This document shows positions 8,492 through 52,343 of a stretch of DNA of 64,000 bases, piece by piece; position 1 is the first letter of the stretch, and the number at the start of each line of letters is the position of its first letter. The stretch comes from Bryum argenteum (lineage: Eukaryota > Streptophyta > Bryopsida > Bryales > Bryaceae). The position numbers and the translations under genes are program-made. Where the stretch lies: NCBI GenBank assembly GCA_037043015.1, contig CM073325.1, forward strand, positions 15,231,001-15,295,000, given 5' to 3'. Under the pieces are notes generated by a model. That model worked only from the letters and a program-made list of their open reading frames with translations. It was not told where the DNA came from and ran no database searches.

Positions 8492-8744
8492 CCCATGTAG
8501 ATTCTTGAAACCCCCAAAAATGGGTTTTGAAAGAACAAAATTTAGTCAACTTTGACTGTTATAATCTCACATATGAAGAAGAATGAATGGCTCAAATTTG
8601 GCATGCGCGGAGTATGCCAAGTTAACTTTGAATTCGTACGGTTAGATGTGCTATGTGATGCATAGATTGAGCTATATATGATCTTGAGGTAGAAGGAGGT
8701 TATTTTTTGTAATTTAGATAATTTTGCACTAAGTATCTTTAGGG
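8492..8744 (-). mobile_element. TTAA-flanked piggyBac-type MITE, 253 bp
   Basis: TTAA occurs exactly at 8488-8491 and 8745-8748. The ends read CCCATGTAGATTC and, inverted, CCCTAAAGATAC. Read on the minus strand, the interior aligns by eye with the MITE at 15179-15438: a TCTAACCGTA segment, a CCAAATTTGA.CC.TTCATTCTT segment, and the TGTGAGATTATAA.GTCAAAGTTG core all occur in order. Non-autonomous; mobilisation by a piggyBac transposase is inferred from the TTAA target. Confidence 0.72.
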
Positions 8745-10458
8745 TTAATAACCATGAATAAGAACCAAGAAGATGATCCATCAACATGTTTTTTTAACAA
8801 AGAGAAATTAAGTTAGAAATGGGCACATCACCAAACTTGGACCTTATTGACACCATTTTACGGAATTATTCACACTTGGAGAGTGATGTTGCTCTTGCGC
8901 AATTATTATTAGCTTTCCCCAACAAGCCTCCTTTGAATTTGAAAATTATAGTGTTGGATACACTAAGTATTGATCATGTGATTTGAAAAAATAATGCTTG
9001 TTGCAAGTTTTCTAAATTTAGTACCAAGAACCCCAATGCCGAAAAAATTGCGTTATTCCGCTTAAATGGCACACCTCAACTTCTTGAACAACGGGAGTTT
9101 GAAAACCACAATACAATATATTGAACGATATATTAACCCCTAACCGTCCGTGTGTTTTTGGGAGCTTGAAAGTAGAAAAGTGTGATTTTTCTACCACTAT
9201 GCACTCAAGAAGGTGTGGACCAGATTTTTTTACTTTTTTTAGATATCCAACCATAAGATCTTGTAGCCACTTGTATTTGAAAGTGCTGATCCAAATTTCA
9301 ACCGTTTGGATCTTTTTCATTTGTGAGATCATAACGTTCAAAGTTGAATATGAAATTTTTTTTGCCCTTGCCCGGGATACATAGTGTACATGGTCCAAGA
9401 GCAAGTTGATGATTGTTACCCCAAACTTTTTGCTCATATTTTTTTCCATGTAGGTAATCAAGTTGCACATATGCATGCAAAATTTTTGGAGCTCATTCAA
9501 GTTTTTGAACCATCTTCTAAATTGTTTCCCAAGCGGAGGTCTAAATTGGCACTTTGTCCCTTGAAAGGGTTGTATGCACATTGCATTTTGAGATTTTGGA
9601 AAATTCGAAAATTGAACGGTCAGAATGTTCCCTTATGAGTTTCTAAATTTGAGGCACAATTATTTTTGAAAAATTCGAAAATCTGAATTTCTTATGATTT
9701 ATCAAAGGGTTGGTGCAAATCATCTCGCTAAATTTGAGATGGGCGGGGGATGGTATATTGGGAGTCCACCGGCGTTGTTCTTCACTCGCCCGGTCCTTTG
9801 TAACAATTATGAATTCACATGCATGTAGTAATAACTACGAGAATAATTTAGTGAGAAGTGGGATGGAAAACATTGATGGCTCCGCCAAACCGAATCTTTT
9901 AATAAATGTTCGCCCCATGTGCAAGGAGAAGTTGATTTTGGCACTTGGCCACCTCGGCCGCCTAGCCGGCCCTCCTCCTTGGACCAAAGAAATGCTCCAA
10001 CAAAGAAATGGGGCCACAAAGACGGCGCGTCCCTGTACAAAAGACTCCTCCGCCAACCGCAGCCCACCGACCGGCTCCAGCAGGGTCCTCCACGCCTGCT
10101 GCTTGCATGGGCGTATCCCCTCCTGCGCATCTGACGTGGATGCCACGTCCTCCTCGTCCTCCAAGCTCCAAGGGCGCTCAAGCTCCGGGGGGCTTGAAGC
10201 TCCATACTGAGGCTCTGTTCCTGTAAAATGGAAAAGAAAAAACTGGTCTTGCTATGCCGTGGTAAACCCTGCACCAAACCCCATAGTATTGTCTACAATT
10301 ACAAATATGATCTCATTCCCTGAGAAAATCTAACGTGTATTGCAAAGAATTATGCATGAAAAAAATATGCATGAAAGAATTGGATGCGTATAAAATGTTT
10401 GGAAATTGGAAACTTGGGACTAACATTACATGTAAAAAATAGGGGTTGTAATTTATAC

Positions 10459-13224
10459 CTATGTTTCATGGCGGTGCCACCGCCGCATAGCCATCTCTGT
10501 GTGATATCGTTCAAAACACCCCTCTTTGTAACACATCCACTTGTTTCCACACAAGTAGCAGTAGTGGTGTGGCCGCCGAACATTACAAACAACACATAGG
10601 CGTCTAGTAGAACTATGGCTAGGTAGGTGAATCACAGGCCGGTCTGGTAAAGGTGGTACGTCAGCAGGTTCCAGAGGCCGCCCAGGCCAGTCAGCTAATA
10701 GAGCTTCACATAGCCCTTTCTTGAATTGTAGGTGTGACATGGGGGTGGCTCTAGGACGGTTTCGGTTGTAATGTGCAGAACGATCCAAATAAACAATGTA
10801 CATGTTGACAACTGTAACATCCAGTAAGAAAAAAAACACGCGATGCCACCACTTGTGGGACCGCACCTGACAACTGTAAGATGCTCTAAGCTGGTCTGCC
10901 ACGTCAACACCGCGCATGTGAGTAGTATATTCCTTCAACATAGGTGAAGTATGCACTGGCTTTCGACGCTTCTCAATAACGCGGGGAACAGTGACAACAT
11001 GCCGCTCACATGGAGCCTGGATGGGCATGCTGTGAGTAGAGATCAAGAGAACGGGCCTCTTGTCCTTCCACATCACAGATGAGATGGACCGACTCGAATG
11101 CACTCTCCAATAAGTGGTGCCTTGTGGGGCATTCTTGAAAGACTTGGTATTCTTCAAGAATGAAGGCAAACCTATCCGGTTTGGTCGGATAGTACCGGTG
11201 GCATACATACCACGAGACAATAGAAAAGAAAATAGACCAATACTGGTAAAAAAATTGTCTAATGTAATACAATGACCACGGTCCCACAAACCATCCACCA
11301 ATCCAACAACAACCTTGTGGGCTAGACCAACATCACCTAGAAGAGGTTGAACTTGGGGTAATTCCCCAATAACCGGTGGGATGACATTCTCCTTTCCACA
11401 ATATATTTGAAAATTCCAAACAAACTTGGAAACAGAGCATGCAAGACACCACACTTTCAAACCCCATTTTTGGGGTTTCTTAGGCATGTACTGGCGTATA
11501 GGGGAGTATGAGCCTTTATACCGTATCATCATTTCATCCACGGTCAAATGCTTTCCCAAATTCCAAGCCAATTGACACCGACCTCTAATGGCATCAACAA
11601 GCCATCTAGTTTGCCCGATTTTGTCATAAGTAGGGTCATTTCTAGTAACACCATCCAAATTAGTAAGATGAAGACATCTTCTAAGGTCCTTGAACCTAGC
11701 ACGACTCATAATTCCTGAAATTACTGGACAACCAAACAATTTATCCTTCATCCAATATGTTTCATAATTAGGTTGCACTTTCACCCCATGTAAAGTGCCA
11801 AAGCCAGAATGCATGAAGTTCGAGGCAAAGTGATGTTATCCCACCGAGGCCCTCCTTTGTACGATTCCCATCCAAAGGTGCATTAGCGTACCTATTAGTT
11901 TCGTGAATTATGCTATTCAAAACGGTAGGAGTCCAAAATAGGGCAAACAATTCCATGAAGCTAGGAAGACCCCTCCAATTACCAAAGGAGCCTCTCCTAT
12001 TTCCAAGAAAAAAGCCTTATTGATGGGTTGTAGAAATTGTGAGAACCCCCAAGTTTCATCTCGATATTCCCACTTCAATCCCGATTGGGATTCCGAAACT
12101 TCATCATTTTCCTCAATATCCTCAATTTCCGCAAATCCTCACTCTCATTTCCGGTTATTATGTGTGGTTCGGACTCATCATCACTTCCCCAACTCCAAAA
12201 CCAATATTATCCCCAATTTGAAACGCACTGACCGGATGGTGTTGTGCCTTGTCCAATCAGCTCTTACGCCGACTTGTTGCCAACTCGACAATGCAGTCCA
12301 GGCACCTCACCGGGCAAGGTCTCCCACGCCCGGGCGCTAAATCACCGCCGTGAGGGCTGTGACCACGCGTCCACGCTGGAAGGCTCGCCCGGCGCCCGGC
12401 TCGGCGGCCCTCGGTGACCGACCACGGCGCCCGGCGCTCGCTGCTGGCTCTGCGAGAGATGACTCGGCGGCTTCAACGGCCGCCACGCGCGAGGGCATGC
12501 CTTGCCCCGGCGACCTCGTCCCACGTGGACCACGCCCACGCCCGGTCGTGTAACCTCATCTCGCTCGCATGCGGCATCGGCGACTTCGCCAAGCTCGGCG
12601 GTCTCGGCAGCGACGTCGAAGAATGCAACTTCGGCATGCTCAAAGTCTCTACTGGAACCTGCTCCACCCATTCGCTCTACGGCCCTTATCGCCTCCATCG
12701 CTCCATGAGTCTCAATCTGATCCTCTGCAATTTGCTTGCGTGTTCCTCCATAGAATCGTGCCTGTAGAAGCAATTCCGGAGGCTGAGGGATGTCCTCTAA
12801 TCCTCCTACATGGTTTCCAGGATCAGAGTCTTCTGTAGAATCATAGAGTTTTTCATGGATTGAATATTGTCGTGGTTCATGCTCTTGTGAGGGAAGGTAG
12901 TCCCCATCGAAGGGTGTGTTTATATTTGTCAAAGGAACAAGCTCTACGGCGTGTCCAAGATCTGGCAGATCGTTGTTGAAGACAGGTATTTCTACTTCTT
13001 CTTCTTCAAATAGATCGTCTGCAAGTATGTTTGGAAGTGGAGCTTGGTGCAATCTTGAGCTTCTCCGAATTGGGATTCCCTCCCACTCCATCTGAGTAAA
13101 CAACAAAGGAGAGAGGTTACAACTTACATAGATCTAGAATGTCATGAAATTTCATTTAGAATTTCAAGAAAGGTACATGAAATGCTACCTGCTTTGCCTT
13201 CTTGCTAGAAGATCGTTTAGGCAT
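10459..13224 (-). pseudogene. piggyBac transposase gene (DDE_Tnp_1_7 type), frameshifted
   Basis: A proposed first exon, 13224-13189, encodes MPKRSSSKKAKQ, a basic nuclear-localisation-like start. A 97-bp intron (CAG|GTAGCA ... TTTACTCAG) leads to 13091 and an acidic region (DDLFEEEEVEIP). An acidic segment with ETWGFSQFLQPINKAF lies near 12060-11990. LFWTPTVLNSIIHETNRYA (about 11955-11885) is the typical N-terminal piggyBac motif. The main domain, 11814-10459, is one 451-codon frame with catalytic aspartates in LTVDEMMIRYKG (D93), ITLDNFFTS (D186) and RGVDVADQLR (D304). It ends in a Cys/His-rich finger (CVVC...YCYLCGNKW). The ETNRYA segment and the main domain are in different frames (shift near 11790), and another shift lies near 11960-12010, so the gene as sequenced is broken. 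All catalytic residues survive, which suggests recent activity. Transposases of this family cut and paste precisely at TTAA. Confidence 0.85.
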
Positions 13225-14272
13225 CTTTCTTGTCTTGCCAATGAGATCTCACAATACTAGTGAAATCACTATCAAAAATTTGCTGATCTCTCCAGCCTAA
13301 CACGTAAGCAGCCTGTCTGTAGTAGTGATGTCTGAAGTTGACAGCTTCAGGCAACTTAAGCCACACTCGACTCTTCTTCCGAACCGGCAAACTCTGTAAG
13401 TAATCTGGGTCTAAGAGACTCACTAATCGACTAATTTTCTCCGAATTCAATTTATGTCTCTCTGCCCATGCGATCAATTGTGTTTCTGCAGAATTGAATG
13501 ATGAAGCTTTCTTGCAGGCACTGACAAGATCGTTCTGCCAGTTGCTAGTTCTCTTCTTGCCGCCGGCCTTCACCACGGCTGCAGTCTCGCCCGACCCGAG
13601 ACCTCGCCGGCCGCGATCTCGCCCGACCATGGCCTGACTTGCAATGCAGTCTCGCCGGGACCATACCGACCTCGCCGGCTTGATCTCGCCTGGACCATCA
13701 CCTCGCCGCAGCAGTCTCGCTCGACCAAAGACTCGTCGTCGGCCGCTAAACCGCCCGACCAAAGACTCGCCCGTCATTGGCAACCTCCCGTTCGAGCCCG
13801 ATCTGCTGGTTCTGCTGAGGCCGGTCCTCCTGCTTGCTTGCCGAGAGGAGTAGCCAAACCGTGGTCGAAGATGAAAACCGCCGTGGGCCGAGAAGCCAAC
13901 CGCCCGCTGATCGATGTGATCATGACACCCTGCACCTCGACGAAGCTCAAGTCGCAGATACCAGACGGCCGGTTGGTCTTGGACCTGATCGGAGTTCTCG
14001 ATGCCGATCACCTCCGACTCGATGCCGACCAACGCCGCAGTGTGTTTGTCCTCGCAGGATCTCCCACCTGCAGCAGATTCGGGACTTGTCTCGAGCTGTG
14101 CAGCCGCCACAGTCGTCCAACACTCACACACCAGATTCGGTGACTTGGAAACTCTCACTATTGCTAAATTATCATTGCAGGCAGAGCTCTCAATTGCATG
14201 AGTATGTTGATTTTGTGAACAATTTGCACATGTGTTGTAACCAAGTATTCCAGAGAAATTGAAACGTTCCAT
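13217..14272 (-). other. Open frame upstream of the piggyBac transposase, overlapping its ATG
   Basis: A 351-codon frame ends with a stop at 13217 that overlaps the transposase start at 13224-13222. Its last hundred or so residues (SNWQNDLVSACKKA ... LVSLLDPDYLQSLP ... YVLGWRDQQIFDSDF) have ordinary protein composition. The first two thirds cross a GC-rich, Arg-rich island with short TCTCGCCCGACC-like repeats and are probably not coding. I do not recognise a domain. It may be a second element-encoded protein, an alternative 5' exon or a captured host fragment. Confidence 0.4.
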
Positions 14273-14752
14273 CTTGTTGATGAGAGTAGGAGAAGTCTGA
14301 ATGTTTGATATTTGAATTCAAATGCTTGCAACCGTTTCATGGTCATGGTAGTTTGGTATTTTGTCTTGGAGTTTGGAATAACGTCATAGTGCATTTAGTG
14401 AGGAGAGCCGCCAATCTCCTCTCTAAGATCATGGGTTACCCTAAACCCACTACAAACCCACTGCCCATAAGTAAGTGTCCTCACTTACCCGAAAATCTGC
14501 CCCAAAATTTAGCTTAGCTCTCGTTGGTGCAGAGTCCAGCCCGAACTGCCCTTTTGGGCACAAGAAACTTGAAAGTGCCATAAAAGATGCACAAATGTGA
14601 ATTTGACCCCAAGATTTTTACCACATTTAGAGTATACAAATATACACCCACTGTAAAAAAATTGAAAAAAAAATATTAATTTCTTGACCTTCAAGTAGCC
14701 TGACCAAAAGTGCAGAAACCCATTTCGGGTTTTTCAGACGGTTAGGGGTTAA

Positions 14753-15174: not shown

Positions 15175-15178
15175 TTAA

Positions 15179-15438
15179 CCCCTAAATTTCCTTGTTGCAA
15201 AACGGTCTAAGTCACAAAATTTGACCTTCCTTTAGATTAAGCTCAAAAAATCTCAATCTAAGAATTGTTCAGAAAATCCAACCGTAACATCTCAAAGTTC
15301 ACTTGACATTCTTCTCACATACCAAATTTGAACCGTCCATTCTTTCTTGTTTGTGAGATTATAATGTTCAAAGTTGGCTGAGTTTTTCTCTTGCTGGAAC
15401 CACTAAAACCAGTTTCGGGTTTCAAGGAAAGTTAGGGG
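15179..15438 (+). mobile_element. TTAA-flanked piggyBac-type MITE, 260 bp
   Basis: TTAA at 15175-15178 and 15439-15442. The left end CCCCTAAATTTCCTTG matches the inverted right end CCCCTAACTTTCCTTG at 15 of 16 positions. It belongs to the same family as 8492-8744, read in the opposite orientation, and contains the shared TGTGAGATTATAATGTTCAA core at 15352-15376. No coding capacity. Confidence 0.8.
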
Positions 15439-15605
15439 TTAACTATAAAGGTCTCCCAAAAAAATTAAATAGTGCGATTGTTTACAGTACCGTACTAGTT
15501 TTTGGCACCAAAAAATTGCCGAGAAAAACAGGGCCTTTGCTGGAAAAAGCTTCCGAACTGGTGTTGCCCAGTGGATGCGCACTTCATAGGAACGTGGGTT
15601 GCAAT

Positions 15606-17914: not shown

Positions 17915-18351
17915 CTTCATTCAATGTTGGATCTCCACATTATATTTACGGTTGAATTTTAATTTAAATCTAGTCTTTGTTGTAAGAATATATGCTCAAT
18001 CTATGGGAAATATATGCATTAATTTTGTGCAAGGGGTCTAATTTCGGACTTTTTCTCTTTTGTAAATTTTCAAGGTTTTTTTTATCATTGCAAGGCTCTC
18101 ACTTGAGGCATAAACTGTTTTGATGATAATTTTTGTCACAAATGTGTTCTTAGGTTGAATATCAAAAACTTTTTAGTTGAAGATTTTTTGACGGCAACCT
18201 TGTTTGTATCATTTCATACTAATGTGAAATTTATGAATAAAAATTTTCTTTTATTACTCCTAGTACGTTATGATTGTGCAATCTATAAAGCTTCATAACT
18301 TAGAATTTGATTCACACGACCTACAAAAGGTCTATTACAAGACTGTACGAT

Positions 18352-18730
18352 TAACTCCTAAAATCTTTGTGCTTTTTGGAGCTTAAACACCCAAACTTCT
18401 ACCTCTTTATATAAAGAGGGGGGGGGGTATGAACCAATTGCTTTCCCTATTTCAAGAAGTCAATTGTAGGATCTTGTTCTTGACTCCACTTAAAAGAACC
18501 TATGTAAATCTAAATTGTTGGATAAATACCATTTGTAAGATTGTAACATTCAAAGTTTATGCAAAAGCATTTGTGCATTCTGTAGAACTTACGAGATTAT
18601 CTTCATTGTGCAAAGATAGATTCAATGATTGTTACACCAAACATTGTCTTCATATTTATTTCCATGTAGATAACTAATGTGGATGTGTCCATGCCATACA
18701 AAATTTCAAAGACTCATTACATTATTTTGA
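18352..18730 (+). repeat. Diverged fragment of the piggyBac left end
   Basis: CTCCTAAAATCTTTGTGC plus TTTTTGGAGCTTAAA mirrors the left end of the 9137 element. Further in, AATGATTGTTACACCAAAC, then ATTTATTTCCATGTAGATAA, match the order and spacing of that element's 9410-9460 region. Termini and TTAA are decayed (ATTAACTCC remains on the left). Confidence 0.6.
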
Positions 18731-30455: not shown

Positions 30456-31780
30456 CTACCTGATCCATTCAAGTCTGCTCTGAAGTTTCATTGATGGTTT
30501 GTGTGTTGTGCCTCTAGCACCCGCTGTGATGACTATGAGGGGGTCTACTTTCCATCCTAGGTTACGGAGGTTGTCAAGAAGTGGTTGATATTTGTCGGTT
30601 TTGTTATTAATTGTTTCTTGAGAGAATCTATCGTTACAATATGTGAATTCTATAAATTGAAGTGTGAGGTTGTCTGATGGGTGTGTTGGTGGGTCGTTTT
30701 TGTGTGGTAGACCTTTAACGCATAGTATATCCAGTTTAAATCTAGCGTTGCAATGACATCTTTGTTGTGTACATTCGCATTGTAATAGCCATGTAGGGAT
30801 TGTATTTTCTTGGGGGTTGTTATTAAATGTGCCTACGTTCATGAGGATATAACATCGTGATTTTTGTGATGAGAGAATTAATTTTCTTAGTTCCCATACG
30901 ACTTTGTTATGTCTCTTGATTCTAATGGCGTGTATGTGGTGGTTGCGACATTTGAGTATTGCGTGTAGCCATGTGTCAGCATCCGTGGAGTTACATATAG
31001 AGCAAGTTACTGAGGGGAATCGTTCTCTACTAAAGAATAGTTGTTTCCTTGCGTTCCCCATGTATTGGCCGGTGCGTAGCTTTAGAATAATTGTTTTTTG
31101 TGAGTCTGTAATTAAGGGGTTTAACCAGTATGCATTTGATAGTTCATTGTCAATATCCGGGTTTGTTGTCCATTTGTTGGTATTTGGGAATTGGTCAGCG
31201 AGTATTATAAGGTTGTTGTCGTAGTCTTGTTTGTGTAGGTATGTTTGAAGGCATCTGACCGGGCCCTTGTCTGGGCATTTTAAGGGTCCTGGCCATTTAT
31301 ATTTCTGGTAGTAGAACGGTGGAGTGTGTGCGAATTCGTGGGGTTTTGTAGCTACCAAATATTGCTTGGTGGCTCCGGCTTTTGCAAGTTTGTTTGCTTG
31401 TTCATTACCAGTGATATTAATGTGCACTTTAACTTTGTGGAATATAGTGGGTTGGGTACGGTTTTGTAATATTTCAACCATTTCTCTTAAAATGGTTCTG
31501 TCAGGATGGCTTTGGTGTGTGGATGGGTGTAATATGTGAATATTTAGGTTATATAGGCAATTCATGCAATCCGTGAAGATATAATCCGGTTCATTTGGGT
31601 ATTTGGTGTTAATTAGGTGTAGGGTTGTATGTATATCCATTAATTCTGCACGAAAGCATGTTTGAAGTCCAGGAAGTCTTTCTGATATTTGCATGTCTGG
31701 TTTTGTGGAATTGTAGATGCCGTATCCAGCTTTTTCTTTTTCCCAATGTCCAATGTCTTTGGGTGGTATAAAAGAGCCGT
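30456..31780 (-). pseudogene. LINE RNase H and C-terminal domain
   Basis: The RNase H catalytic set is visible: YYTDGSFIPP at about 31785-31756, CFRAELMDIH, IFTDCMN and KVHINITGNEQANKLAK. TDGS is in a different frame from the 412-codon segment 30456-31694, so one shift separates them. Downstream is a Cys/His-rich CSICNSTDADTWLHAILKC motif, typical of LINE C-termini, then CECTQQRCHCNARFKLD. Confidence 0.82.
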
Positions 31781-31808
31781 CCGTATAGTAGCTGTGTTGC
31801 GGTTGAAA

Positions 31809-33359
31809 TTAAAGAGTGGGGTTGATTTCGAACATTGGTAGAGGGGGTATACATGTGGGTTCGGATTTTGAGTTTGTATGTGGGGGGTATAACATTTTAT
31901 TCCATCTTTTATTCTTTTTGACAATAGTGTTGTATAGGGTTGGTGGAGCTTGTTGTATATAGTAGTGCGGGATTGCCATGGCCTCAATTTCATTTCTGAT
32001 GTTGTTAATTTGTTCTAATGTACCAATGTAATTGTTTTGATGGTGTATGCACATGATGGATATTGCATGTGGTTCACTTGTTGGTTTGTATTCTGGTGGG
32101 GGTGCTAGAATTTTGTATGTGATTGAGTCCGCGGTGAAATGGGTTATTATATGTGTATCCGGGAATGGTCCACTATATGGGGTTGGGTTTTGGTTCCAGT
32201 TTGGGTCGGGGGTGACTATTATGGTAATTGTATTCGGGTCGTGTTTGGCCGCTAATCTCGCCCAATGGATGGCTTGTTGGGTTGTTTCCGGATTATGTGT
32301 ATGAGCATAACCTATGCCTGTCCATTTATATTCAAAAGCGTTAACTTGGGATTCAAAGATTTTGTCTCGGGAGAAAGTGGAGAAATATTTTGTTATTTTA
32401 GTGGAGCACGTTATTGGTGATGAGAAGTATGAGTGATTGATTTGGAGGTTAGTGGTGATATGATCGAGAATATTCGTTGGAAGGGTGTGGTGGGGTGTTA
32501 GTTTCGGGTTTTTTTTGGAGAATTGAGCTTTGTATCTTTGGTATAACCATATTATTTCTGTTTCAAAGGTTTGTGTGTATGGCATTAGTCCGTGTGAGTT
32601 GTTTGAGTATTTATTAAATTGTTGCCATAGCCACTGTAATCTATTTATGGGTATGGTGGTGAGGTATCGGCCGTTGTTTTCGTATAGGTGAGCTGATGCG
32701 TTATTTATTTGTATGGTGGTTTTGTTAGTAATAATGTCTCTTTCTGGGTTACATTCTGCAAAGTGTATTTGTGTAAGTGGGGTAATTGATGGTGGTGGTA
32801 TGAACCTGGTGTCCTTCAGTTGTGCTTGTATAAAGTGTGTGTTGATCATGTTTCTGTAATGGTTATGTTGCGAGTTGGTGTAGTACTCCTTAAGTAGTTG
32901 AATATTGTGTGAAATGATTGTTGGATATTTTAAAGGGAATAGGTCTCTTTGTTGGAGCCATTTATGATATGTGATGTTGTTGTGATGCCATTTGCATAAG
33001 TATGTGTTGTAGGTTTTAGGTATTTTGTATTTGTCTTTTGTAGTTACTGTTTTGTGATTAAATATTGTATTTATGGGATATTCTAAAGGGTTGTTTTTTA
33101 TGTTTGGTGGTGGGCTTATTTGGTGAGTAGCTTGTTGGGTAGTAGGTTGTGGTTGGTTGTTTAGATTTCTTGGGACTAGGTCAGAATTGTCTAAGATGTA
33201 TATTGGTTTGAGTGTACGGGCCGGTGGGTGTTGGGTGCAAGTATTAGGGCAATTTAGGTTGCATTTAATTTGGCAGAATAGTTTTTCAGCTATTTCTAGC
33301 GCACTTTTCTCAAGTCTAGTTGGTGTTTTACGGTAGGTTGCAAAGTCAGTTGGTGACAT
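31809..33359 (-). pseudogene. LINE linker region between RT and RNase H
   Basis: A 516-codon uninterrupted frame, rich in Asn, Thr, His, Pro and Gln, following the RT. WARLAAKHDPNTITIIVTPD and ALEIAEKLFCQIKCNLNCPN are the most ordered-looking parts. No catalytic motif. Its length without a stop suggests the element is not very old. Confidence 0.65.
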
Positions 33360-33699
33360 GAGGCTTGTGCCGTTTGGGAGAGAGATGTGTTTGATTTTGT
33401 AGATATTGTGTATTAAAAGCTTGTGTAATAGCTTGATTGATAGTTCGGGGTTGAGGTGTGGGAGTTCGATTGTAGCTTGTTCTAACCACTCACGTTCCAG
33501 TTCGGTTTTGTATAATTGGAAGCCATCATTGGTTTCTATAGGTGATGTGGTGTTGCTGTATTTTTTCCTTGAATTTATCAGGCTTTATTTTGGATTTGTT
33601 TGGAGAGCCTGTAATTGCACATTTTTGCGCGCTGAGGTCCATACCTGCCCATTCACAGAATTTATCTATTTTGTATATTTGAGTTTGTATGGATTAAAG

Positions 33700-34925
33700 G
33701 GTGTTTGCAAGTCCTGTTAAATCGTCTGCGTATGTGGCAGTTGTAACGTTTATTTTTGATGTGCCAAATGTATAGCTATTATTCCCTCTTTGTAGCCATC
33801 TGAGTAGTGGTTCTAGAAATATAAGAAATAGGTAAGGCTGGGCTTAATGTGTCGCCTTGAATGGTTCCTCTTTGTATTGGAATTGGTTCTGTCTTGCCAA
33901 AATATTCGCCTGTGAATATTGTAGAGGAGTTTGAATATATGTTACCAACCAGCGTTACCGCGTCTACAGGGTAACGAAGGTCTTTCATTACTGCGAGTAG
34001 TCGAGCATGGTCTAAAGAGCCGAATGCGTTTTTAAAATCTATATATAATATGTAAATGTCTTGTTTTGTGAGTTTTGCGTCCTCTAAGGCTGCAGTGATG
34101 AGTTGTATTTGTCTGGTTGTGCTTCTTTCTGCTCGGAAGCCTTCTTGGCTGTCATGTAGTATTTGGTGATGTTCGCCGTATGTTGAAAGTATAAGTGTGA
34201 GAGTACTCGTGAAGAGTTTGTAAATTGTATTGGCTAACACTATAGGCCTGTGGTTTGGTAGTACTGATGGATCGACTTTTTTGTATAGTTGTATGGTTAG
34301 GCTTAGTTTCCATGATGATGGTATTTGTCGTTGTTTGTAGCAGTGGTGAAAAAACATGGATAGTAGTTTATGAAAGTTGTCAGGTATGTTTTTTTAAAAT
34401 GGAGTTAGGGATTTTGTCAGGTCCTGGTGTTTTATTATTGGATAATTGTTTTAAACATTGACCATATATTTCATCGCTGAAGTATTTATGTAAGGGGGTT
34501 TGTGGGTTACCCCTTTTGTCTATTACAAAGCTGTCTAAATCGTGCCATGGGTATTGTCTCACGCTACATGTACATAGTGTTGGGTGTTGGGGCTGGTGAT
34601 AGCATGTTGGGACTGTGGGTCTATTACTTTGTGATTGTTGTGTATGTATTTCAAGTGCAATGTCTTTCGGGTTGGTTAGGAGGTTGTTATATCTATCTGT
34701 GATATAATCAAGTGGTGGAGTATCTTGATATTTGAAGACTTTTTTATTTATTTTTTTTGGACTTTTGTCGTATAACTGCCTATATTTCGCAATAGCTTTT
34801 TTGATGCATGTTTGAGTGAATTTTGTAGTGATTTTTTGAGCTTGTTTTTTTGATGTTTTTGCTATTTGTGCTAGGGTTTGGATCCATTCTTGTGGATTAT
34901 TGGTTTGTGGCGGGGGTGGTGGCAT
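33700..34925 (-). pseudogene. LINE reverse transcriptase domain
   Basis: Conserved RT blocks are readable across three frames: KTPGPDKIPN (34425-34400), PSSWKLSLTIQLYKK and HRPIVLANTIYK, YILYIDFKNAFGSLDH (first catalytic Asp), IQRGTIQGDTLSPAL and TYADDLTGLAN, with YADD at 33732-33721. Frame changes fall between the KTPGPDK block and the next, and before YADD. Confidence 0.88.
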
Positions 34926-35042
34926 GTCTGTGTGTGTATGTTTGCTTAGTTCTTCTATTATGGAGTGGTTCTGCCAATTGGGGGTGTTTTGTGTAATGTA
35001 TATAGCCTTGCGAATTAAATGGTATGTGGTTAGGTGTTTTTT

Positions 35043-36188
35043 CTATTGTTTTTGGAGTTTTCTTGGTAAAAATCCCCCTTGTTCAGATGTGCGTGGTGTT
35101 AATGTAGGCAAAGGTGGTGCGCTACAAGTATTTTCGATTAACTTGGATGTTTTTTGAATTAAGTGATCTAGTTTTTCGCATGCCGTTTGCCATTGTGTAT
35201 TTGTTAATTGAATATTTGAGAGAAGAGAGGTGAGGTCGTTGATTTCGCTTGAGTTGTCTTCGTAGAATATTCTTTTAAATTTATCAAGGTTTTTTTGTGG
35301 AATAGGGTTTAAAATCCTTGTTGGTTTAGTTGTTGGTTTTTGTGGGGGTCTTGCGAGTAGTGTGTTTGGAGGTATTTGAAGAGTAATTGAAGAATGATCT
35401 GAGTTTAGGTTATGTTCTGTAATAGTTAGTGATGAGTATAAGTTATTATTGGGGGTTTTTATGAAAAATCCATCTATTAGGCTGGTTTCGCTGTAATTTT
35501 GTTCTCCTTGTCTTGAATATACAGTGTTTGTTGGTATATATGTTAGTTGTAGCGAATCTGTGAATGCGCACCAATCCATGTCTTCTATTTGAGGTGGAGA
35601 TGTGTTTAATTCGTGTTGACGACCTATGAGAGCTATGTCTCTATTAAAATCCCCACATAATATTTGAATGTCGTTAGGATGTGCCGTAATCTGTTGTGTT
35701 ATTTGTTGTTGAATTGTTTCTAAGTAAGGGATGTCCTCTGGATGTGACGGCATATACATGTGTATGAGTAACCAGGGTTGTAGGGGTTCGTTTTTTATTT
35801 TTATGATTTATAAATATGGTGATATTGCGACAGGAGTTGGAATTTTGGTAATATTACCTGGGTATGTGTATTTGTTGTTTATAAATATTAAAAGGCCTCC
35901 TCTTGTGGGTATATATTCCATTCGTTGTTTCATGCATCGTGTTAGTGCGTGTGTATTATTGAAGATCATTTTGTGATCAGGGAATAAGTTTTGAAGATAT
36001 TTGGTAGATTTTGTGGCAGTTAGTTTAGTTTCTTGTATTGCAATTATTGCCGGGCTGGTTGGGGTGTTAGTAATTAGTTCATGTAGATTTGGGAGGGCGG
36101 TGTTGAGCAATGAGGCATTCCATGTGATTATATGCGTTTTATGGTTCGTGATGTTTGGTGTTGTATTTTGTGGGGGGGGGGGGCACAT
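35043..36188 (-). pseudogene. LINE AP endonuclease domain
   Basis: Exonuclease-endonuclease-phosphatase signatures: HIITWNASLLN near the start, IIAIQETKL (metal-binding Glu), IQILCGDFNRDI (GDFN), SLIDGFFIKT, and LNSDHSSITLQI (SDH at the C-end). They lie in two frames, 35808-36188 and 35043-35759. This domain nicks target DNA to prime reverse transcription. Confidence 0.85.
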
Positions 36189-36450
36189 TTGGTGCTGGAG
36201 GGGGATGGGAATATTCGGGAAGGGGTTCGTTGAATTTTAGGACTTCTGCAAGTAGGTCGTCGGGTAGAAATGGGAATTTGTTTTTTAATTGTTCTTGATT
36301 GGGTGGTGTATTGTTTTGTTGAATGAATTCATATAATTGTTTGTGTATGGTGTTGGGGGGGTTTATTAGATTAGAATTTGTGTTTTTGAATTGTGTACAT
36401 GGGTGTGGGTTGTTAAGATGTCTTTCCGGCGGGTTTTGAAGTGTGGCCAT
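36139..36450 (-). pseudogene. LINE proline-rich segment before the endonuclease
   Basis: A 103-codon frame with MATLQNPPERHLNNPHPCTQ and a Pro-rich YSHPPPAPNVPPPPTKYN, overlapping the endonuclease frame. The text runs on from the segment after the 2A-like motif, and a matching frame continues into HIITWNASLL. Confidence 0.6.
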
Positions 36451-36609
36451 TTTGTTAAGTAATATAGTGGTCCAATTTGGATTAGTCGGATGTTCAAGGA
36501 TGCGGTTGCATGTTTCGGGGGATGGGTTTATTGTTGTGATAAGAGCGTATAGTATACGTGGTGCTGGATGATGAGAGTTTTCCCGAACGTAGTTTGTGAG
36601 ATATGGGTA

Positions 36610-37278
36610 TTATATTTGTGCTTCTGGATATTTTGGGTGCGTATTTATGAGACGTGGCGCAAATTGTGTTGATAAATGCTGGTACTCAAGGTGCAGTCGA
36701 ATTGTGCATGGTATGAAGTAATTCTTGCATCTTTGTTTGTGGACGGCTGGGTGTGTTTTGAGTACATTTGGCATGAGCCCTGGGTTAGTTTCGACATCTC
36801 CGCATTTTGGTAAGTGATATTTGTTTTTGTATGTGTAGTGGTATGTTTTAGTAGTGTGGGTTGATGTTTTTGATATTTTTGTGGATGTAGTGTTGTTTGT
36901 GTGTGTTTTATAAGTTGTATTTTGGTTAATTGGTTCATAGGCAAGTCGAGGAGGCCGGGTTTGTTTGTTTGTGTCTATAGCATTTTGAGTGGAGTTTGAT
37001 GAGTTTGGTTTGGATTTTTTAGTATGTTTTGAGTGGTGATCTATAATGGGGTGTTTTGGCTTTTTGTTTAGTTTTTGAGGCCAAGAGAGTACGTGTATTT
37101 TGCATGAATTTATTAAATTTAGTTTATAGGCGAGGCCGGGAGGCCGAGCTCGATATTTTGTAGAGTTGTGTGTAGGTTTTGTTTGTTTATTTTTGGGTAA
37201 CTTGGGATATTTTTTGTGGTGTAAATGTTGTTTTGTGATGAGATATTTTGGAGTTTTTGTGTTTATTTTGGCTAGCAT
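36610..37278 (-). pseudogene. LINE N-terminal segment with 2A-like motif and repeats
   Basis: A 222-codon frame holding two modules of the N-terminal repeat (RARPPGLAYKL and TRPPRLAYEP), then KCGDVETNPGLMP at about 36810-36769, then a conserved-looking stretch (QFAPRLINTHPKYPEAQI). GDVExNPG matches the 2A ribosome-skipping consensus except that the last residue after NPG is Leu where functional 2A has Pro. Confidence 0.75.
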
Positions 37279-38520
37279 TTGAAGTCGAATAAGTTGGGAT
37301 TTTTGTATTTTTAGCCTGGGTGTAGTATTGGCTATTAATATTTTAATTTTTGTTATTATTTTTGTTATGTTTTTATGGGCGAGGCCGAGAGGCCGAGCTT
37401 GAGTGCTTGTGTGCTTGCTTGTTTAGTATTTGATGTTAATTTAGTGGGTTTGGACTTTGGCATCATAGAATTTTTTGTGTGATGTAAATGTTTATTGTTT
37501 GTGAGGTAAAAAGGTCGAGCTTGATAATTTGTGTGCTTAGTGTTTTTTGAAGGGGAAAATTACATCCTATTTTTACGTTTGATAATGTTAAATAATGATA
37601 CTTGTGGTTGGTAGAAATGTTTAATATACTCTATAGGCGTTTTTTCATCAAACAAGCAAGATTGTACATTAAACTTTGTACAAAAAGTTACATCTGTTGG
37701 ATTGTTGGTGATTTTGAAGAGTTTTATTCCAATTGTGTATGTTTGTAGTGATTCTTTTTTTTAAATATCAAAACTAAACAGACATGAAGCATTGCAATGT
37801 GTCATGTTTGAGAATTTAATAGTTAGAGAGCTTATAGTTTTTGAAGTGGATTTGGTTGAGATGATTAATAAATGATCACTTTTGAAAACATGAAACAATC
37901 TTGTATTTAATATCATTGTGTTATGATCAATAGAATGGTTCTTTTCAAAAACAGCATGAGATAAACTTCTTTGTATTTTTGATGTGTTATGTAATATCCC
38001 ACAAGAAATAATTAGGAAGTATTTGAAAAGCTTATTGCAGAATTGTCTATATGATGTCTTGATCTTTTGTAATGTTTTAGAGCGATCAAAAGATAAGTGT
38101 ATGTACATCAATTTGTCTTTTATATGTTCAAGACTGTCGATAAGTAATTGCTTATAGATAGTTGTGCTTTCTAGTACTTTGAAGCCATTTGTGAAGTGGT
38201 CTTTGTGCAATTTGTTTGTTATTTGGATTATTGATTTATAAGCGAGGCAAGGAGGCCAAGCTCGATTTTTTTTGTGATTAATGTTTTGTATAGAGTTTGA
38301 TGGTTTGGATGTTTTAGGGTGTTTTGTGTGGTGTAAGTGTTGGTCATTATTGTGATGATTTGTCTTTTTGTTGGGCTTGACTAACCCTTGGGGCCAGTCA
38401 AATTGATTTTCTTGTGTTTTTTGTGCTAGTGTGGGTGTAGGAGCATGTGTGTGGGTTTTGTATGTTTGAATCAATAATTTATAGGTGAGGCCGGGAGGTC
38501 GAGCGCGATTACTTGTGTTC
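36930..38520 (-). repeat. Tandem modules of about 245 bp in the LINE N-terminal/5' region
   Basis: A GAGGCCGGGAGGCCGAGC-like phrase (plus strand) recurs near 36938, 37131, 37379, 37503, 38240 and 38484, with further similarity between (for example LHH..K.PK and NRARPPGLAYK in translation). Spacing is about 193-248 bp, except for a 740-bp gap where unrelated sequence (about 37560-38210) interrupts the array. The modules translate without stops over long stretches, so they may be coding repeats of the LINE protein and not an untranslated promoter array. Confidence 0.75.
37556..38215. other. Interruption within the LINE repeat array
   Basis: This 660-bp segment lacks the repeat phrases found on either side. 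On the minus strand it is open in the frame of the 329-codon segment (for example DRSKTLQKIKTSYRQF). It may be an insertion or a unique part of the LINE. No inverted ends were found. Confidence 0.4.
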
Positions 38521-38829
38521 TTATTGTTTTGTGTAAAGTTTTTAAATTTAAATTTGGGTATGTTATGGTGATGTAAACGAAGGTTTTTGTTGGGATGATT
38601 TGGCTTTGTGTTGGCTTTGGCTAGGTTTTGTCGCCAGAAAATTTGGTTTACTTGTTTAATGTTGGTTTTGATGTTGTTTGTTTTAGTTTTTGTGATTATG
38701 GAAATGGTTATTGTAGTGATGTAGCTTATTTGTTTAGAAGGGTAGTTCATAAACTTAGATTTTGTTTTTAGAAAATGTATTTTTATTGTTATTCTCGTTT
38801 TTGTATTTTGTATTTTGTTCTTTTTTGAT

Positions 38830-39065
38830 GTTTATTGTGTATATGTTCAAATCGATTTTTCTTTTTCTTTTACTATTCTCATCTTTCCTATTTAATTCTT
38901 TATTAGTTTTTCTATTTATTTTCCTATTTATTTTTCTATTTACTTTTCTATTTTTTTTTCTATTTTTTTTTCTATTTGTTTTTTTGTTTATTTGTCTATT
39001 TACCGGTCTATTTAATTTTCTATTTAGTATTCTTTTTTCTTTTTTCTTTTTTTTTTTGAGTCTAC
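38830..39065. repeat. Pyrimidine-rich tract with TTTTTCTATT repeats
   Basis: More than 200 bases almost purely T with regular TTTCTATTT(A/G) units on the plus strand, that is A-rich AAATAGAAAA repeats on the minus strand. It lies just 3' (minus sense) of the ORF1-like region and 5' of the LINE repeats. It may be an A-rich inter-ORF spacer or an expanded poly(A) tail. The plus-strand frame here is merely the F/L-rich shadow. Confidence 0.7.
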
Positions 39066-39152
39066 TTGGAATTGTAAGTTTTCTATTTTTGGTTGTATTA
39101 AGAAATACACTTGGTTTTGTGGTTTGTGTCCTTGGGCCTTTGTTGGTCGAAT

Positions 39153-40763
39153 TTAGTTTTCCGTTTCCATTGAGTCATTTTCCTCTCTTTGACCCAGGCA
39201 AAGTTTTTTGTTTGATTCTATGGTTTGCATAGTCATGGCAAACATTTCACCCATCGCTTTTAATTGTTGTTGTATGCTATCCGATGCTTTTTGGTGCACC
39301 TTCTCTACATAGCTCATAGCTTCTCCAATTATTTCTTTTTTCATCACCCCCTTTTCTTTTCTCATCACATCCATGGTTTTGGAGCTACCTTTCTCAACTG
39401 CCTCGTTTACGATTTGTTGGAGGTCCTCCTTTGTGTATGTTTTTGTTGCGTTGTTCTCCATGGCTTGCACGTTGTTAATGTCATTGAACCCAAGTCTTTT
39501 TAGGTCATCCTCACTAGGTTTGACATTCCCATCTAAGCTTTTGGGGTGGGGAAAAACTCGACATAATTGTTTAGTATTTTGTGAGTTTTCTTGACATACT
39601 TCTTGTAAACCGCTATGTTTAGGCATTCAACATTGCAAATTCCAACATGCCTACCTTTTTCAAGGTGGAAATACACTTCAACAACATTGTCATTGCCCAT
39701 GAGTTTCCTTATTTCCATTTCTATTGCTTCCTTTGGTTTGGTTTTATTAAGGTTCTTCAAGCACATTCCTTTTAGCCTTTTCGTCATCCGTTAGTTTCCC
39801 TTTGGATGGAATTGTTGCTTCCAAAATCTCATTCTCATATCTAACTTTTTCTGCTTTCAAAAGTTTGACTTGAGTAGGTGAAGTGGTGACTATCCAAGCA
39901 AAGTTTGCCTCTATATTCTTGTGGACATTTGTGATTTCGAATTCTATCCCTCTCTTAAAACCATCCTCTACAAAGGCCTACATCATACTTGCCCAATGTT
40001 TTTTGGATAAGTTGAGGCTTGTGATTTTGACTGATAGTAGGCTATTGATAGCCAGCGCATCATAGGATTTGCAAATTTTCCCTCTCAAAGGTTTTCCATT
40101 TATATTGAGAATAAATGGTTTCTTACCTTTTAGAAGGTCCTTAGCGTCGGTTTTGGGGTTTTTTAGGTGAATTCTAAGAGTTCCACACCAAATGTTTGAT
40201 TGGTGGTAGCAAAGGTAAGCAATTGGTTCACCCATGAGGGTTCCTAACTCAATGCCCATGCTTGCTAGCCTAGACTCTACTTGAACCGTTATCTCTTCTT
40301 TAGTGATTGAGGGGGTGCTAATTTTGAAGTAGATTGCCACTTGGTAATCAATAGCATACCCAAACTCATCAATTTCAACCTCACTTGGAATTTGTGCGAG
40401 GTTGAAGTGTTGTCCTTCTTTCCCATTTATTCTACTCGAGGGCCATTCCTCTTGTAGAACATATGGAAATGAAGGTGTGCTCTTCTCAAATTCTTCTCTC
40501 TCTACTTTTCCTAGACCTTTCATGATTGTTTCTTCTTTTTTTCTTATTATCTCTATCATTTCATCATTGTAATGGTTAAAATAGTTGTGTGCTTGAAAAC
40601 CTAGCAAAAACTTTCTCTCATAGTTTTTCCCCTTCTTAGACATGACAACTTCAACATCCTCATTGTTTTGTCTCTTAGATGTCAAACCTTCGGACATGGT
40701 GAAATTTTGGGATAGGTTTTTAACAACGCCCTTGGAGGGTGTGCTTGCACTTGTTTGAGCCAT
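39153..40763 (-). pseudogene. ORF1-like coding region of unknown family
   Basis: ATG at 40763-40761 (MAQTSASTPSKGVVKNLSQN) follows an acceptor (ACTATAG|GATGG). It encodes basic and acidic segments (EVVMSKKGKNYERKF, EIIRKKEETIMKGLGK), then a folded-looking part (YQVAIYFKISTPSITKEEIT ... IAYLCYHQSNIWCGTLRIHL ... INGKPLRGKIC). The sense continues in other frames with VVEVYFHLEKGRHVGICNVE and ends in a helical, Gln/Lys-rich tail (EDLQQIVNEAVEKG). At least two frameshifts separate 39978-40763, 39533-39787 and 39153-39626. The two-block beta/alpha feel recalls RNA-binding ORF1 proteins of LINEs, but I recognise no domain. It may be ORF1 of the adjoining LINE or a separate element. Confidence 0.5.
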
Positions 40764-41008
40764 CCTATAGTATACACAAAAAAAATTTGAGTTGTTTTTA
40801 TTGATCTTTACTAGATTTCTCCATTTATTCCCTACTTCTCCTTCTCCCCTCATCTTTACATGAGGGGCTTTGCGAAGTATGAAGAGAGGGGGGAGGGTGT
40901 TCTTTTTATTATAACTTTGCATGTATGTTCTAATTTTTTTACTAATGCATATTTCATATTTGTTATAATGATACATCAAAGTAAAGAATAAATGATTGGA
41001 AATCGTAC

Positions 41009-42095
41009 CTGATGTTTGGTGATGTCGGCTAATAGCTCCTTTGAGCAAGGTGCTGATGAGCACCAGAGTTGATTGGGTTTTTAGTAACGCTCGGGCAGTG
41101 AGTCTTGATACTTTAGCCTCTACAATCGCTCCGAGCTTTGTCTTGGCAGCGTTGCACTTCACGATGTCACCTTTGCTCCGGTCTCTTCTACGCAAGAGCA
41201 ATTCTCGCTCCAATCTCGTCTCGGCAGCAGTTCCGATGACCACACCTTTGGTTCTTGACTCGGCAGTGGTTACCGTCTTGTTGATGTCGGGGTTTCCCTT
41301 CACCTCCTTAACAACTACTAGTTTGGTCTCGATAATAGGGTTGATGTAATTACCTGCTTCTTTCTTTCTTCCGGTGGCACCTCGAACTCTCTTCTTCACA
41401 ACAGCAGTAGTAGCGGCGTAGGTGCACACAACACCAGCGTTCGTCTTCAACGCAACTCCCAGCCTAGTCTCGGCAGCAGCTACGTTGTTTTTGCTTGTGT
41501 CGATGTTCGCCCCAGTCTGGCTTGCAGCATTCGCTTTTGCTTTGGAAGCGGCAACGTCGTTTCTGGTTACGGTAGCTTTGGCTACCTTACAAGCGATGAT
41601 AGCTCTCGAAGCAGCACTTTGGATGCGGTTCAAAGCATCGACTTCCTCAATAACAATGTCTCTATTAGTCTCGGCAGCAGCGTCGTGCCTTATCTCGAAG
41701 GAGTCGGCGTTGTTAACGGCTCCCTTGGTAGCAGCGTCCCCCTTCGTCTCCGTAGCGTTGGCTTTACAGCGGCAGAGTCTATGTGTGAGTTGCGACAACC
41801 TGCTATTGTAGGGTTTGGCCTCGGCAACAGCGTTTGTGAGAAGGCTTTCGACTCTCGGATTGGCAGCACCTACGGTGTTGTCAACACCAACCTTTAACTT
41901 CGGCTTGGCGTCAGCATCCAATCTTCTCTTGGTAGCACCTCCGGCTTCCGTCCCACCGTTCGTCTTGGCGGCGATTTTCCTACGGAGGTGGCGGAACGGT
42001 CTTGACTGTGGTGAGTTATCCTCCGTCTCTGTCAACAGTTTCGGGTTGAATGGGCTCCGATCTCCTTTCTTGGCGTATCTCGTTGTAACTAGGTT
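41009..42095 (-). CDS. Putative exon: Ala/Lys/Thr-rich protein of unknown family
   Basis: On the minus strand this is a 1087-bp open exon flanked by a strong acceptor (long pyrimidine tract, TCTGTGCAG|AACC) and a donor (ATCAG|GTACGA). The encoded 360 or so residues are rich in Ala, Lys, Thr, Asn, Glu and Arg, with recurring AAETxx, KANA and TNA phrases. It looks like a degenerate internal repeat of 11-13 residues (plus-strand signature GTCTCGGCAGCAG). No known domain; the composition recalls disordered or LEA-like proteins, but that is not an identification. Splicing to 40764 (intron 40765-41008) does not keep frame into the ATG at 40763, so this exon may be 5' UTR for that frame. Confidence 0.4.
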
Positions 42096-42575
42096 CTGCA
42101 CAGATTGACAGAGGTACAACAACAAGCGACAACAGCAAAAGCAATAACACGAATGGGGGTAGCAACAAATAAGCTCTCTAACTTGAGTGTGAGCAACTAT
42201 GAAGACTTCGGAGATCTTCTTCTGGTGTTGCAACGTTAGCAGGAATCTCAGCAAGCAGTTTGATCCAAAGTTTCTATGCTCTACTGTAAGTAACTCTAAT
42301 TGGTTTGACGATCTATCCACTATCTCCTTGTCTAGAGTTTGTATCAAATCTAAGGTTCCTGTTGAAGGAGTGTTTACAGGAGTAGTCAGCTTGAGGGCAG
42401 CGACGCAATGCTCAAATGTGCAGAGAGAAGTGAGATACAGCTCCTTTGCTTCTCTATTTGTATTGCTATTTCTCTCCTCATTTTTAAGCAACGAATGTTG
42501 TCTTTTATTGATAGCTCTATTGACAATTCTACATCTGTTCCTATTTCAACAGAGACTAGGGTTTCGAGAGCTTAC

Positions 42576-51989: not shown

Positions 51990-52343
51990 TTAAGGTTCAG
52001 AACAAAAGTCAATGGCTCCTCCTTTTTGCAAATGACCATGTGGATTCTCCTCGAGTAATTGTTGTTAAAAAAAATCCCCACCAGTATTTTCCGAAAATTG
52101 CTACAAGATTAAAAAAGCAATACAATTTTTGTTAAAGTTGCCTAGTAGATACGGTAGTGTTAGAGAATTATGATCTTACATTGTAGGTTGTCTTTTAATC
52201 AAGACGTTTTTAAATTGAGTCTACAACAATGTATTCCAAAAATTCAAATACCTATGTCAATAGCTTGTTTTTTAAAAAAATCACCTGATTTTTTCCAAGC
52301 CCATAGTCACATTGCCTTATTAGTACTAATCTAATCACCTTAA

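Follow-up and report, generated by a model that had tools for sequence, protein, structure and literature searches.

A decayed piggyBac element with a conserved second open reading frame in what is very probably a land-plant genome

The piggyBac transposon is among the most used transposon tools. Both the T. ni element and piggyBat insert at TTAA and carry short inverted ends beginning with CCC. In the passages cited, the transposons of the animal piggyBac clades A-F and Pokey are said to contain single ORFs, with the catalytic aspartates spaced by 78-85 aa and 98-113 aa (PMC10813416). As for plants, a common-bean TE paper restricts piggyBac to animals or other organisms. A 2022 land-plant TE review lists six TIR superfamilies without naming piggyBac, and a 2025 paper calls its occurrence occasional, 'e.g., red algae'; two other texts count plants among piggyBac hosts, with no element described in the passages cited (PMC8086355, PMC10794571). 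Taken together, the texts cited give piggyBac little or no place in land plants. Here we describe an element from a 64,000-nt stretch of DNA (the window), with the following features.

9133-14752, minus strand (that of the transposase): piggyBac-superfamily element, 5,620 bp including its ends; the flanking TTAA is the target duplication
9133-9148, plus strand: TTAA and 12-bp inverted end on the transposase 3' side
14737-14752, minus strand: TTAA and 12-bp inverted end on the transposase 5' side
9317-9346, minus strand: conserved 30-nt subterminal motif, placed 184 nt from the end on the transposase 3' side and not near the other end, with one mismatch to the motif of locus L057
10459-11835, minus strand: transposase catalytic core (DDE_Tnp_1_7) and C-terminal Cys-rich domain
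about 10500-10605, minus strand: Cys/His zinc-finger-like domain (CVVC..CYLC..C..C...H), by inspection
11768-12138, minus strand: frame-shifted middle pieces of the transposase, 17.4 bits (under the 22.4 cut-off)
12342-13091, minus strand: N-terminal transposase frame from MEWEGIPIRRSSRL onward, with a GC-rich linker
13092-13188, minus strand: putative GT...AG intron of the transposase
13189-13224, minus strand: putative first coding exon of the transposase, MPKRSSSKKAKQ, with the ATG at 13222-13224
13217-14317, minus strand: ORF1 frame, 366 aa from stop to stop; its stop TAA (13217-13219) overlaps the transposase start
13232-13480, minus strand: conserved ORF1 domain of about 85 aa

The sequence TTAACCCCTAACCGTC at 9133-9148 recurs as its exact reverse complement at 14737-14752; the 12-bp terminal inverted repeat CCCCTAACCGTC, with CCC at its start, matches perfectly between the two ends, and TTAA flanks both ends of this element and of its sibling copies. 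With up to two mismatches the end 16-mer was found three times in the window against 0.03 expected, and its exact form occurs 49 times on each strand of the genome against none for a reversed control. In other lineages the terminal repeats mostly begin CCCYTAA. The minus-strand frame at 10459-11835 matches DDE_Tnp_1_7 with E=5e-62 (210.7 bits, cut-off 22.4), and its catalytic Asp codons lie at 11536-11538, 11257-11259, and 10903-10905. An earlier note, drawn from the letters of this DNA, had proposed a near-complete piggyBac transposon with exact TTAA duplications, 12-bp inverted ends, and a DDE transposase with three catalytic aspartates and a C-terminal Cys/His finger. All of these were found, the Pfam comparison that it suggested gave the match above, and the full-length copies described below agree with it; its count of about two frameshifts proved too low. 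In a piecewise comparison with intact relatives, the transposase frames run -3, -2, -1, -3, -2, that is, at least four changes; part of the linker has no alignment. Membership in the piggyBac superfamily is well supported, and the reading of 9133-14752 as a near-complete element with a broken transposase is supported.

Across 15 aligned transposases the three catalytic aspartates are invariant, spaced by 77-99 residues (D1-D2) and 111-117 residues (D2-D3), and a fourth, which we take to be D450-like, is conserved in 14. By inspection of the same alignment, C414 and C417 of the Cys-rich domain are present in all 15 and the later Cys/His residues in most; L045 ends early, L041 and L055 diverge, and L057 lacks one Cys. 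The domain is thus present, and zinc binding is predicted for it. By sequence, the best PDB matches are T. ni piggyBac (6x67, E=3e-22) and piggyBat (9c0f, E=7.3e-19). The same two lead the Foldseek matches of a medium-quality structure model (mean pLDDT 68.5, TM about 0.5), with E=1.2e-18 and E=3e-18, followed by Tn5 with E=1.6e-5; the modelled transposase has the predicted piggyBac fold.

The ORF1 domain, a conserved helical stretch of about 85 aa, is encoded upstream of the transposase. Relative to the 116 transposase matches it was placed 70 times upstream in the same orientation, once downstream, and never on the opposite strand; this count was obtained with all 150 matches of one ORF1 listing and 116 of the 150 of a second, and was unchanged (70/1/0) with all 300 matches (299 distinct places). 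No scored ORF1 stands upstream of the other 46 transposases among the matches listed, although two of these, L043 and L038, do carry ORF1. In most cases ORF1 is a distinct frame that runs up to or into the transposase start; in L039 its tail only remains, and L038 has a frame break in ORF1 and no transposase ATG. The layout of the first transposase exon is otherwise common to the nine lineages compared (8/9), and the intron GT and AG are present in all nine. As a known domain ORF1 was ruled out, nothing scoring above cut-off in Pfam (sub-threshold matches only, E>=0.02), in PDB by sequence (best E=0.2), or in Foldseek (best E=2.1).

The 30-nt motif is a candidate internal transposase-binding site. 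In searches that tolerated up to eight mismatches, all 16 full-length elements of the window clade with known ends carry it, at a distance of 181-184 nt from the end on the transposase 3' side. Of 12 short window-type elements, 11 have it, 161-191 nt away from one end; among these 12, L033 has no motif, that of L031 has seven mismatches, and L023 carries a second copy mid-element. Two of the four short elements within the window have it. The motif is absent from L040 and L042, which belong to other clades. Searches of whole loci also gave none in L034, L036, L041, L046, L047, L056, L058, and L059, of which L034 and L056 are partial, L036 may be incomplete at that end, and L058 and L059 are retrotransposon pieces from the empty sites. 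To our knowledge, neither T. ni piggyBac nor piggyBat has an equivalent of this motif about 182 nt inside one end.

Three other full-length copies (L019, L020, and L021), 95.8-96.5% identical to the window element, share both its ends in different flanks, with one mismatch in the right end of L021. The 9137 and 14748 ends are therefore linked, and the objection that they might belong to different elements fails. With the window element, four full-length copies were found of an older subfamily, which sits within a large and diverse piggyBac radiation: the 258.8-Mb genome contains 116 scored transposase domains above the Pfam cut-off, relatives occur on every one of contigs C1-C11, transposases of different deep clades are 33-46% identical, and TTAACCCYTAA ends number 28,902 against 745 for the reversed control. 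Judged from its copies, a sister family has been copied afresh and mobile so recently that they are still nearly identical: eight copies of 5.7 kb vary at 37 of 5,714 columns, and 13 full-length and 21 short pairs were found among 100 listed of its 699 ends. Long uninterrupted transposase frames elsewhere in the genome answer the earlier guess of intact relatives; ORF1, the sister family's recent burst, and the short derivatives had escaped the earlier note. Sister copies are nested in the genome's own repeats, and target duplication can be read from them. When the flanks of L050 were joined with one TTAA, the junction was spanned in 34 of 36 matches, the other two being its own halves, and for L053 one other place matches positions 1-124 of the joined flanks at 100%. 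Full-length empty sites were thus found for two of the five joins tested; for the window element, L054, and L024 the genome gave no full-length exact empty site. In a search for viral relatives 17 stretches matched a pattern and none was confirmed, and an Rfam search of the window gave no matches. COX1, used as a lead to organelle contigs, was rejected as such, since its 14 matches all lie within contigs C2-C5.

The conservation upstream of the transposase admits readings other than a second gene. ORF1 could be the N-terminal exon or exons of one long transposase, joined by unseen splicing, as its regular place upstream on the same strand would allow and as L045 (1290 aa) and L046 (1331 aa), with the ORF1 domain and transposase in one uninterrupted frame, suggest; because of these two, a separate ORF1 protein is not certain everywhere. 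However, only two of the 150 ORF1 matches listed lie in an open frame of more than 1000 aa, the rest in frames of 64-478 aa. In the window, L004, L036, and L037 a stop stands directly before or over the conserved ATGCC of another frame, and a GT donor follows 36-39 nt after the start of the transposase ATG in nine of nine lineages. We consider the long transposase unlikely, though a serious reading; fusion, being so rare, was rejected as the ancestral form and is handled as a side case. That the region is instead a cis-acting DNA element, with no protein, is very improbable: it does lie inside the element, where such signals are possible, with a candidate cis motif near the other end, but third codon positions differ most often in all of the 14 ORF1 comparisons save one (that with sibling L021, which has only two differences from the window, both protein-changing), dN/dS is 0.07-0.31 in the seven comparisons with computable nonzero dS (dS is saturated in six of the 14), and protein similarity persists between clades with transposases only 33-46% identical. 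ORF1 is, on these sequence comparisons, probably made as its own protein, and it may assist the transposase.

The origin and status of the copies can be questioned as well. An element that is a contaminant, or that came in once by horizontal transfer from an animal or fungus, would agree with the omission of piggyBac from plants in two plant TE papers. Yet in the one plant genome searched relatives in several deep clades occupy C1-C11 and sister copies sit inside the genome's own repeats, and we regard this origin as scarcely credible, though the superfamily may have arrived long ago. The genome is very probably that of a land plant, probably a moss, with MIR156-like hairpins at two places (53.3 and 51.8 bits, under a cut-off of 62) and 39 WRKY matches. 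A grass, with Oryza brachyantha as the candidate, was rejected in view of the character of the kinase and bZIP sequences and the low numbers of MIR156 and WRKY loci. Since the 116 domains and the relatives on all these contigs share a genome with such markers, the element is no stray contaminant, and that objection from the earlier note falls. Some intact frames might be domesticated host genes, given open frames of up to 1331 aa and dN below dS between lineages. End pairs were surveyed at 19 loci (L037-L055) plus L057, out of the 116 domains: L041, L045, L046, L047, and L055 have no matching TTAA end pair around the transposase in the 8 kb examined, and that of L043 has two mismatches. On the other side, matching TTAA ends (at most one mismatch) were found at 12 of the 19 (L037-L040, L042, L044, L048-L050, L052-L054). 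L057 also has matching ends, and L051 has a pair whose outer bases are altered; moreover, there are multiple near-identical copies as well as short derivatives. Domestication thus seems improbable.

We are highly confident that 9133-14752 is a decayed, once autonomous two-gene piggyBac transposon of an older subfamily, with a recently mobile sister family. If intact, its transposase would use DDD chemistry to cut at the 12-bp ends beside TTAA and would place the element in a new TTAA, thereby duplicating it; the short derivatives, which share these ends, were presumably mobilised in trans. The element would encode two proteins. ORF1 would be small and helical; the transposase frame has an ATG that lies at or within the end of ORF1, and its first intron would follow after 12-13 codons, the transposase perhaps being reached via an alternative transcript or reinitiation. 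ORF1 might help it, perhaps by contacting the one-sided subterminal motif or by taking part in building the end complex. Tentatively, and as something nearly as apt to be right as wrong, we propose that this land-plant (probably moss) clade is a two-protein system, in which an undescribed small helical ORF1 protein and the transposase act together, probably at a one-sided 30-bp site about 182 bp inside the end, and that it kept moving until very recent times and has filled the genome with its short derivatives, thousands in number. Such a fresh burst in a plant genome, together with intact transposase frames and abundant short derivatives, would provide a native plant piggyBac for study, and the conserved ORF1 and one-sided motif make a specific, testable case for a partner protein in some piggyBac elements.

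Like T. ni piggyBac (6x67) and piggyBat of Myotis lucifugus (9c0f), the window family has the DDD core and the C-terminal Cys-rich domain. It differs from both in the extra ORF1 and in length, their transposase chains having 594 and 578 aa, whereas the complete-core frames among the aligned transposases span 861-1331 aa from stop to stop, with long linkers. With the animal clades A-F and Pokey, as excerpted, it shares the TTAA duplication, TIRs with a conserved CCC start, and the DDD core (PMC10813416); in contrast to them it has a second conserved ORF, and the Asp spacings exceed the ranges given there in 12 of 15 aligned proteins, those of L040, L042, and L043 being near or within them. Because of the conserved ORF1 upstream, the window family does not have the animal-type architecture of a transposase alone, and we do not file it as an animal-type single-ORF piggyBac. 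The two-ORF architecture is new within piggyBac. Among plant DNA transposons, MuDR, PIF/Harbinger, and CACTA differ from it, its transposase, ends, and TTAA target being those of piggyBac and its ORF1 domain having no Pfam match above cut-off; in the part of the source cited, they also carry further coding sequence beside the transposase (PMC9033089), and the case for a partner protein in piggyBac parallels these extra coding sequences.

The element at 9133-14752 of the window (G000:C5:15231001-15295000; the genome comprises 258.8 Mb in 25 contigs) has linked TTAA-flanked ends and belongs to a group with a conserved catalytic core. The earlier note's assignment of a piggyBac element with a DDE transposase is borne out by a Pfam DDE_Tnp_1_7 match of the frame 10459-11835(-) (E=5e-62) and by the three catalytic Asp, unchanged in 15/15 transposases aligned from this genome. 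The same frame matches PDB sequences of T. ni piggyBac (E=3e-22) and piggyBat (E=7.3e-19), and a fold search with the transposase model (pLDDT 68.5) returned piggyBac first, piggyBat next and Tn5 third. The window transposase is broken, and more so than the two or so frameshifts originally estimated: piecewise comparison with intact relatives gave the frame order -3, -2, -1, -3, -2, that is, at least four frame changes. GC-rich stretches lie in the transposase linker (12221-12700, GC 0.66) and upstream of the domain encoded by the second gene, ORF1 (13561-14140, GC 0.63), whereas the other seven stretches measured have GC 0.34-0.45; the two are possibly captured sequence.

Features of the window
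9133-14752: piggyBac element; left end TTAA + CCCCTAACCGTC, right end its exact reverse complement
13232-13480 (-): conserved ~85-aa ORF1 domain, 5' of the transposase and in the same orientation
15175-15442: short TTAA-bounded element with CCCYTAA ends, holding the 30-nt motif
52340-52709: short TTAA-bounded element with CCCYTAA ends, without the motif
52891-53259: short TTAA-bounded element with CCCYTAA ends, without the motif
54060-54914: short TTAA-bounded element with CCCYTAA ends, holding the motif
8547-8748: additional motif copy, decayed TTAA end ~172-178 nt away
18351-18558: additional motif copy, decayed TTAA end ~172-178 nt away
50865-50894: additional motif copy

The exact 16-mer ends of the element occur 98 times genome-wide (49+/49-), against 0 for the reversed control. 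Three full-length siblings at other sites (L019, 5,629 bp; L020, 5,637 bp; L021, 5,624 bp) carry both termini, which disposes of unlinked ends, one of the cases the earlier note had named against itself. Identity between siblings and window copy is 95.8-96.5% (K2P 0.036-0.044), K2P among the siblings themselves is 0.025-0.032, and private substitutions are most numerous in the window copy (105; 29, 67 and 44 in the siblings). Among the loci fetched, shorter elements also have window-type ends: ten of them measure 506-615 bp and another two ~1.5 kb. The four short elements of the window, whose CCCYTAA ends differ from each other, look like non-autonomous piggyBac derivatives.

A one-sided subterminal motif, CAACTTTGAACGTTATGATCTCACAAATGG, occurs with 0-4 mismatches in every full-length window-clade element whose ends are known (16/16: the window element, L019-L021, L037-L039, L044, L048-L054 and L057), always 181-184 nt inside the transposase-3' end; none of these elements has a second copy at up to 8 mismatches. 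It falls within the best-conserved 30-nt stretch of six aligned 3' ends (0.94, median 0.80), and is absent from the other-clade elements L040 and L042 and from five mononucleotide shuffles of the window. Eleven of 12 short window-type elements hold it 161-191 nt from one end; L033 lacks it, and L023 has an extra mid-element copy. In the window's 15175-15442 and 54060-54914 elements the distance is 172-173 nt. The motif is a candidate binding site, and the copies at 8547-8748 and 18351-18558, with their decayed TTAA ends, probably mark older derivatives.

Insertion at TTAA and recent copying are shown by the sequences of a sister family. Empty sites were sought with flanks joined by a single TTAA for the window element, L024 and the sister copies L050, L053 and L054. 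The L050 join is matched across the junction at 34 other places (the remaining 2/36 matches being its own halves), and the L053 join is matched at 100% over its full length at C4:26693698-26693821. No full-length empty site was found for the L054, L024 and window joins. Exact matches to the window join are its own two halves only; repeats at 78-81% span it (query 412-484, 421-491), likely a diverged, non-exact empty site.

The sister-family end TTAACCCCTAAAGGCC has 699 exact occurrences (control 0), and the 100 listed include at least 13 full-length pairs (5,700-5,716 bp) and at least 21 short pairs (268-273 bp). For seven copies, L048-L054, the pairs compared (10 of 21) show 99.7-99.9% identity across 5.7 kb; with L057 added, 37 of 5,714 columns are variable, many of them single-base gaps. 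L057 has an uninterrupted 916-aa transposase frame with one finger Cys altered; uninterrupted relatives, which the earlier note thought possible, do exist. The ORF1 domain is identical in the eight sister-burst copies read out, and 58 ORF1 matches among those scored have equal scores and a 149-aa frame each. Two full-length sister elements adjoin at a common TTAA (C2:1912919-1912922; span G000:C2:1907221-1918618), head to head, since their ORF1 matches near the junction are on opposite strands.

Genome-wide, at least 116 transposase domains exceed the Pfam cut-off (116 scored, from 776 first-look candidates), and the window protein has at least 97 matches (905 candidates, 92 of those scored), both counts being lower bounds; none was found by the domain search in 14 control genomes. 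A tree of 15 transposase cores has deep clades at 33-46% identity, and 68-77% within the window clade. TTAACCCYTAA occurs 14,364+14,538 times (reversed control 361+384). The largest contig, C1 (44.1 Mb), is depleted: it holds 5/116 transposase matches, 0/58 sister-burst ORF1 matches and 0/39 WRKY matches, and one full-length sister pair among the ends listed; window-family ends are not depleted there (13/98). C1 is perhaps a gene-poor sex chromosome, mostly avoided by the recent burst.

MIR156-like hairpins (two places, below cut-off) and 39 WRKY matches point to a land plant; the few WRKY matches, together with ten contigs of 16.8-44.1 Mb and a smaller C11, suggest a moss. Elsewhere in the window, 30456-42545(-) is an unusual non-LTR retrotransposon. 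Its AT-rich frames match RNase H (E=3.7e-9) and reverse transcriptase (E=9e-16); a match to endonuclease is weak and falls short of the cut-off, and one stretch, CGDVETNPGLMP, is taken to resemble a 2A self-cleaving peptide. COX1-like exons at G000:C4:5371557-5379459, within a large nuclear contig, either stem from inserted mitochondrial DNA or represent a nuclear copy.

ORF1 is conserved in sequence and in position relative to the transposase. Compared with the 116 transposase matches, it lies upstream on the same strand in 70 (992-3138 bp), downstream in 1 and on the opposite strand in 0. The protein search scored at least 150 places from 356 candidates; a distant-clade query gave 151 matches from 309 candidates (150 listed), and with an HMM of eight lineages the domain is also detected in L040-L043, L045-L047 and L055, all from distant clades (E 4e-17 to 3e-4). 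The transposase ATGCC adjoins or overlaps the ORF1 tail in 8/9 lineages compared (in the window element the overlap is ATGCCTAA); all nine have a GT donor 12 codons after the transposase start (13 in L044) and, past a short inferred intron, an AG before MEW/LEW. In L045 and L046 both domains share a single frame, a fusion seen in just 2/150 matches listed for the distant-clade query. ORF1 differences are most frequent at third codon positions in 13/14 comparisons, and dN/dS is 0.07-0.31 in the seven with computable non-zero dS (another six are saturated in dS); window and L021 have two differences, both protein-changing. The AlphaFold model of the domain has six helices (pLDDT 78.5), and no relatives were found in Pfam or in PDB by sequence or by fold.

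PiggyBac elements move by a DDD transposase through hairpin-mediated, TTAA-precise excision and insertion. In the elements described here, ORF1 may supply a partner protein acting at the element ends, the transposase would come either from a transcript of its own or from reinitiation once ORF1 has been translated, and the short derivatives would be mobilised in trans.

In the excerpts cited here, piggyBac is confined to animals or other organisms and not in plants (PMC4093653), unnamed among six plant TIR superfamilies (PMC9033089), of occasional occurrence among plant genomes, with red algae as the example (PMC12732532), or represented by piggyBac-like elements in fungi, plants and metazoans (PMC8086355). 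Likewise in excerpt, PMC10794571 lists PiggyBac with other superfamilies in a sentence on plants without describing an element, the repeat tables of PMC10576809 and PMC6890710 give small piggyBac counts averaging ~80 and ~100 bp, respectively, a MITE survey of 207 genomes (PMC12550479) mentions neither piggyBac nor TTAA, and two moss genomics papers (PMC10619864, PMC13120521) leave piggyBac transposons unmentioned, the first having just the word 'piggybacking'. Among the titles and abstracts listed by searches of the open-access literature, we found no description of a moss piggyBac element or of a two-ORF piggyBac; an earlier description of either may exist. For comparison with these two-gene elements, the animal piggyBac elements in the excerpt of PMC10813416 have single ORFs.
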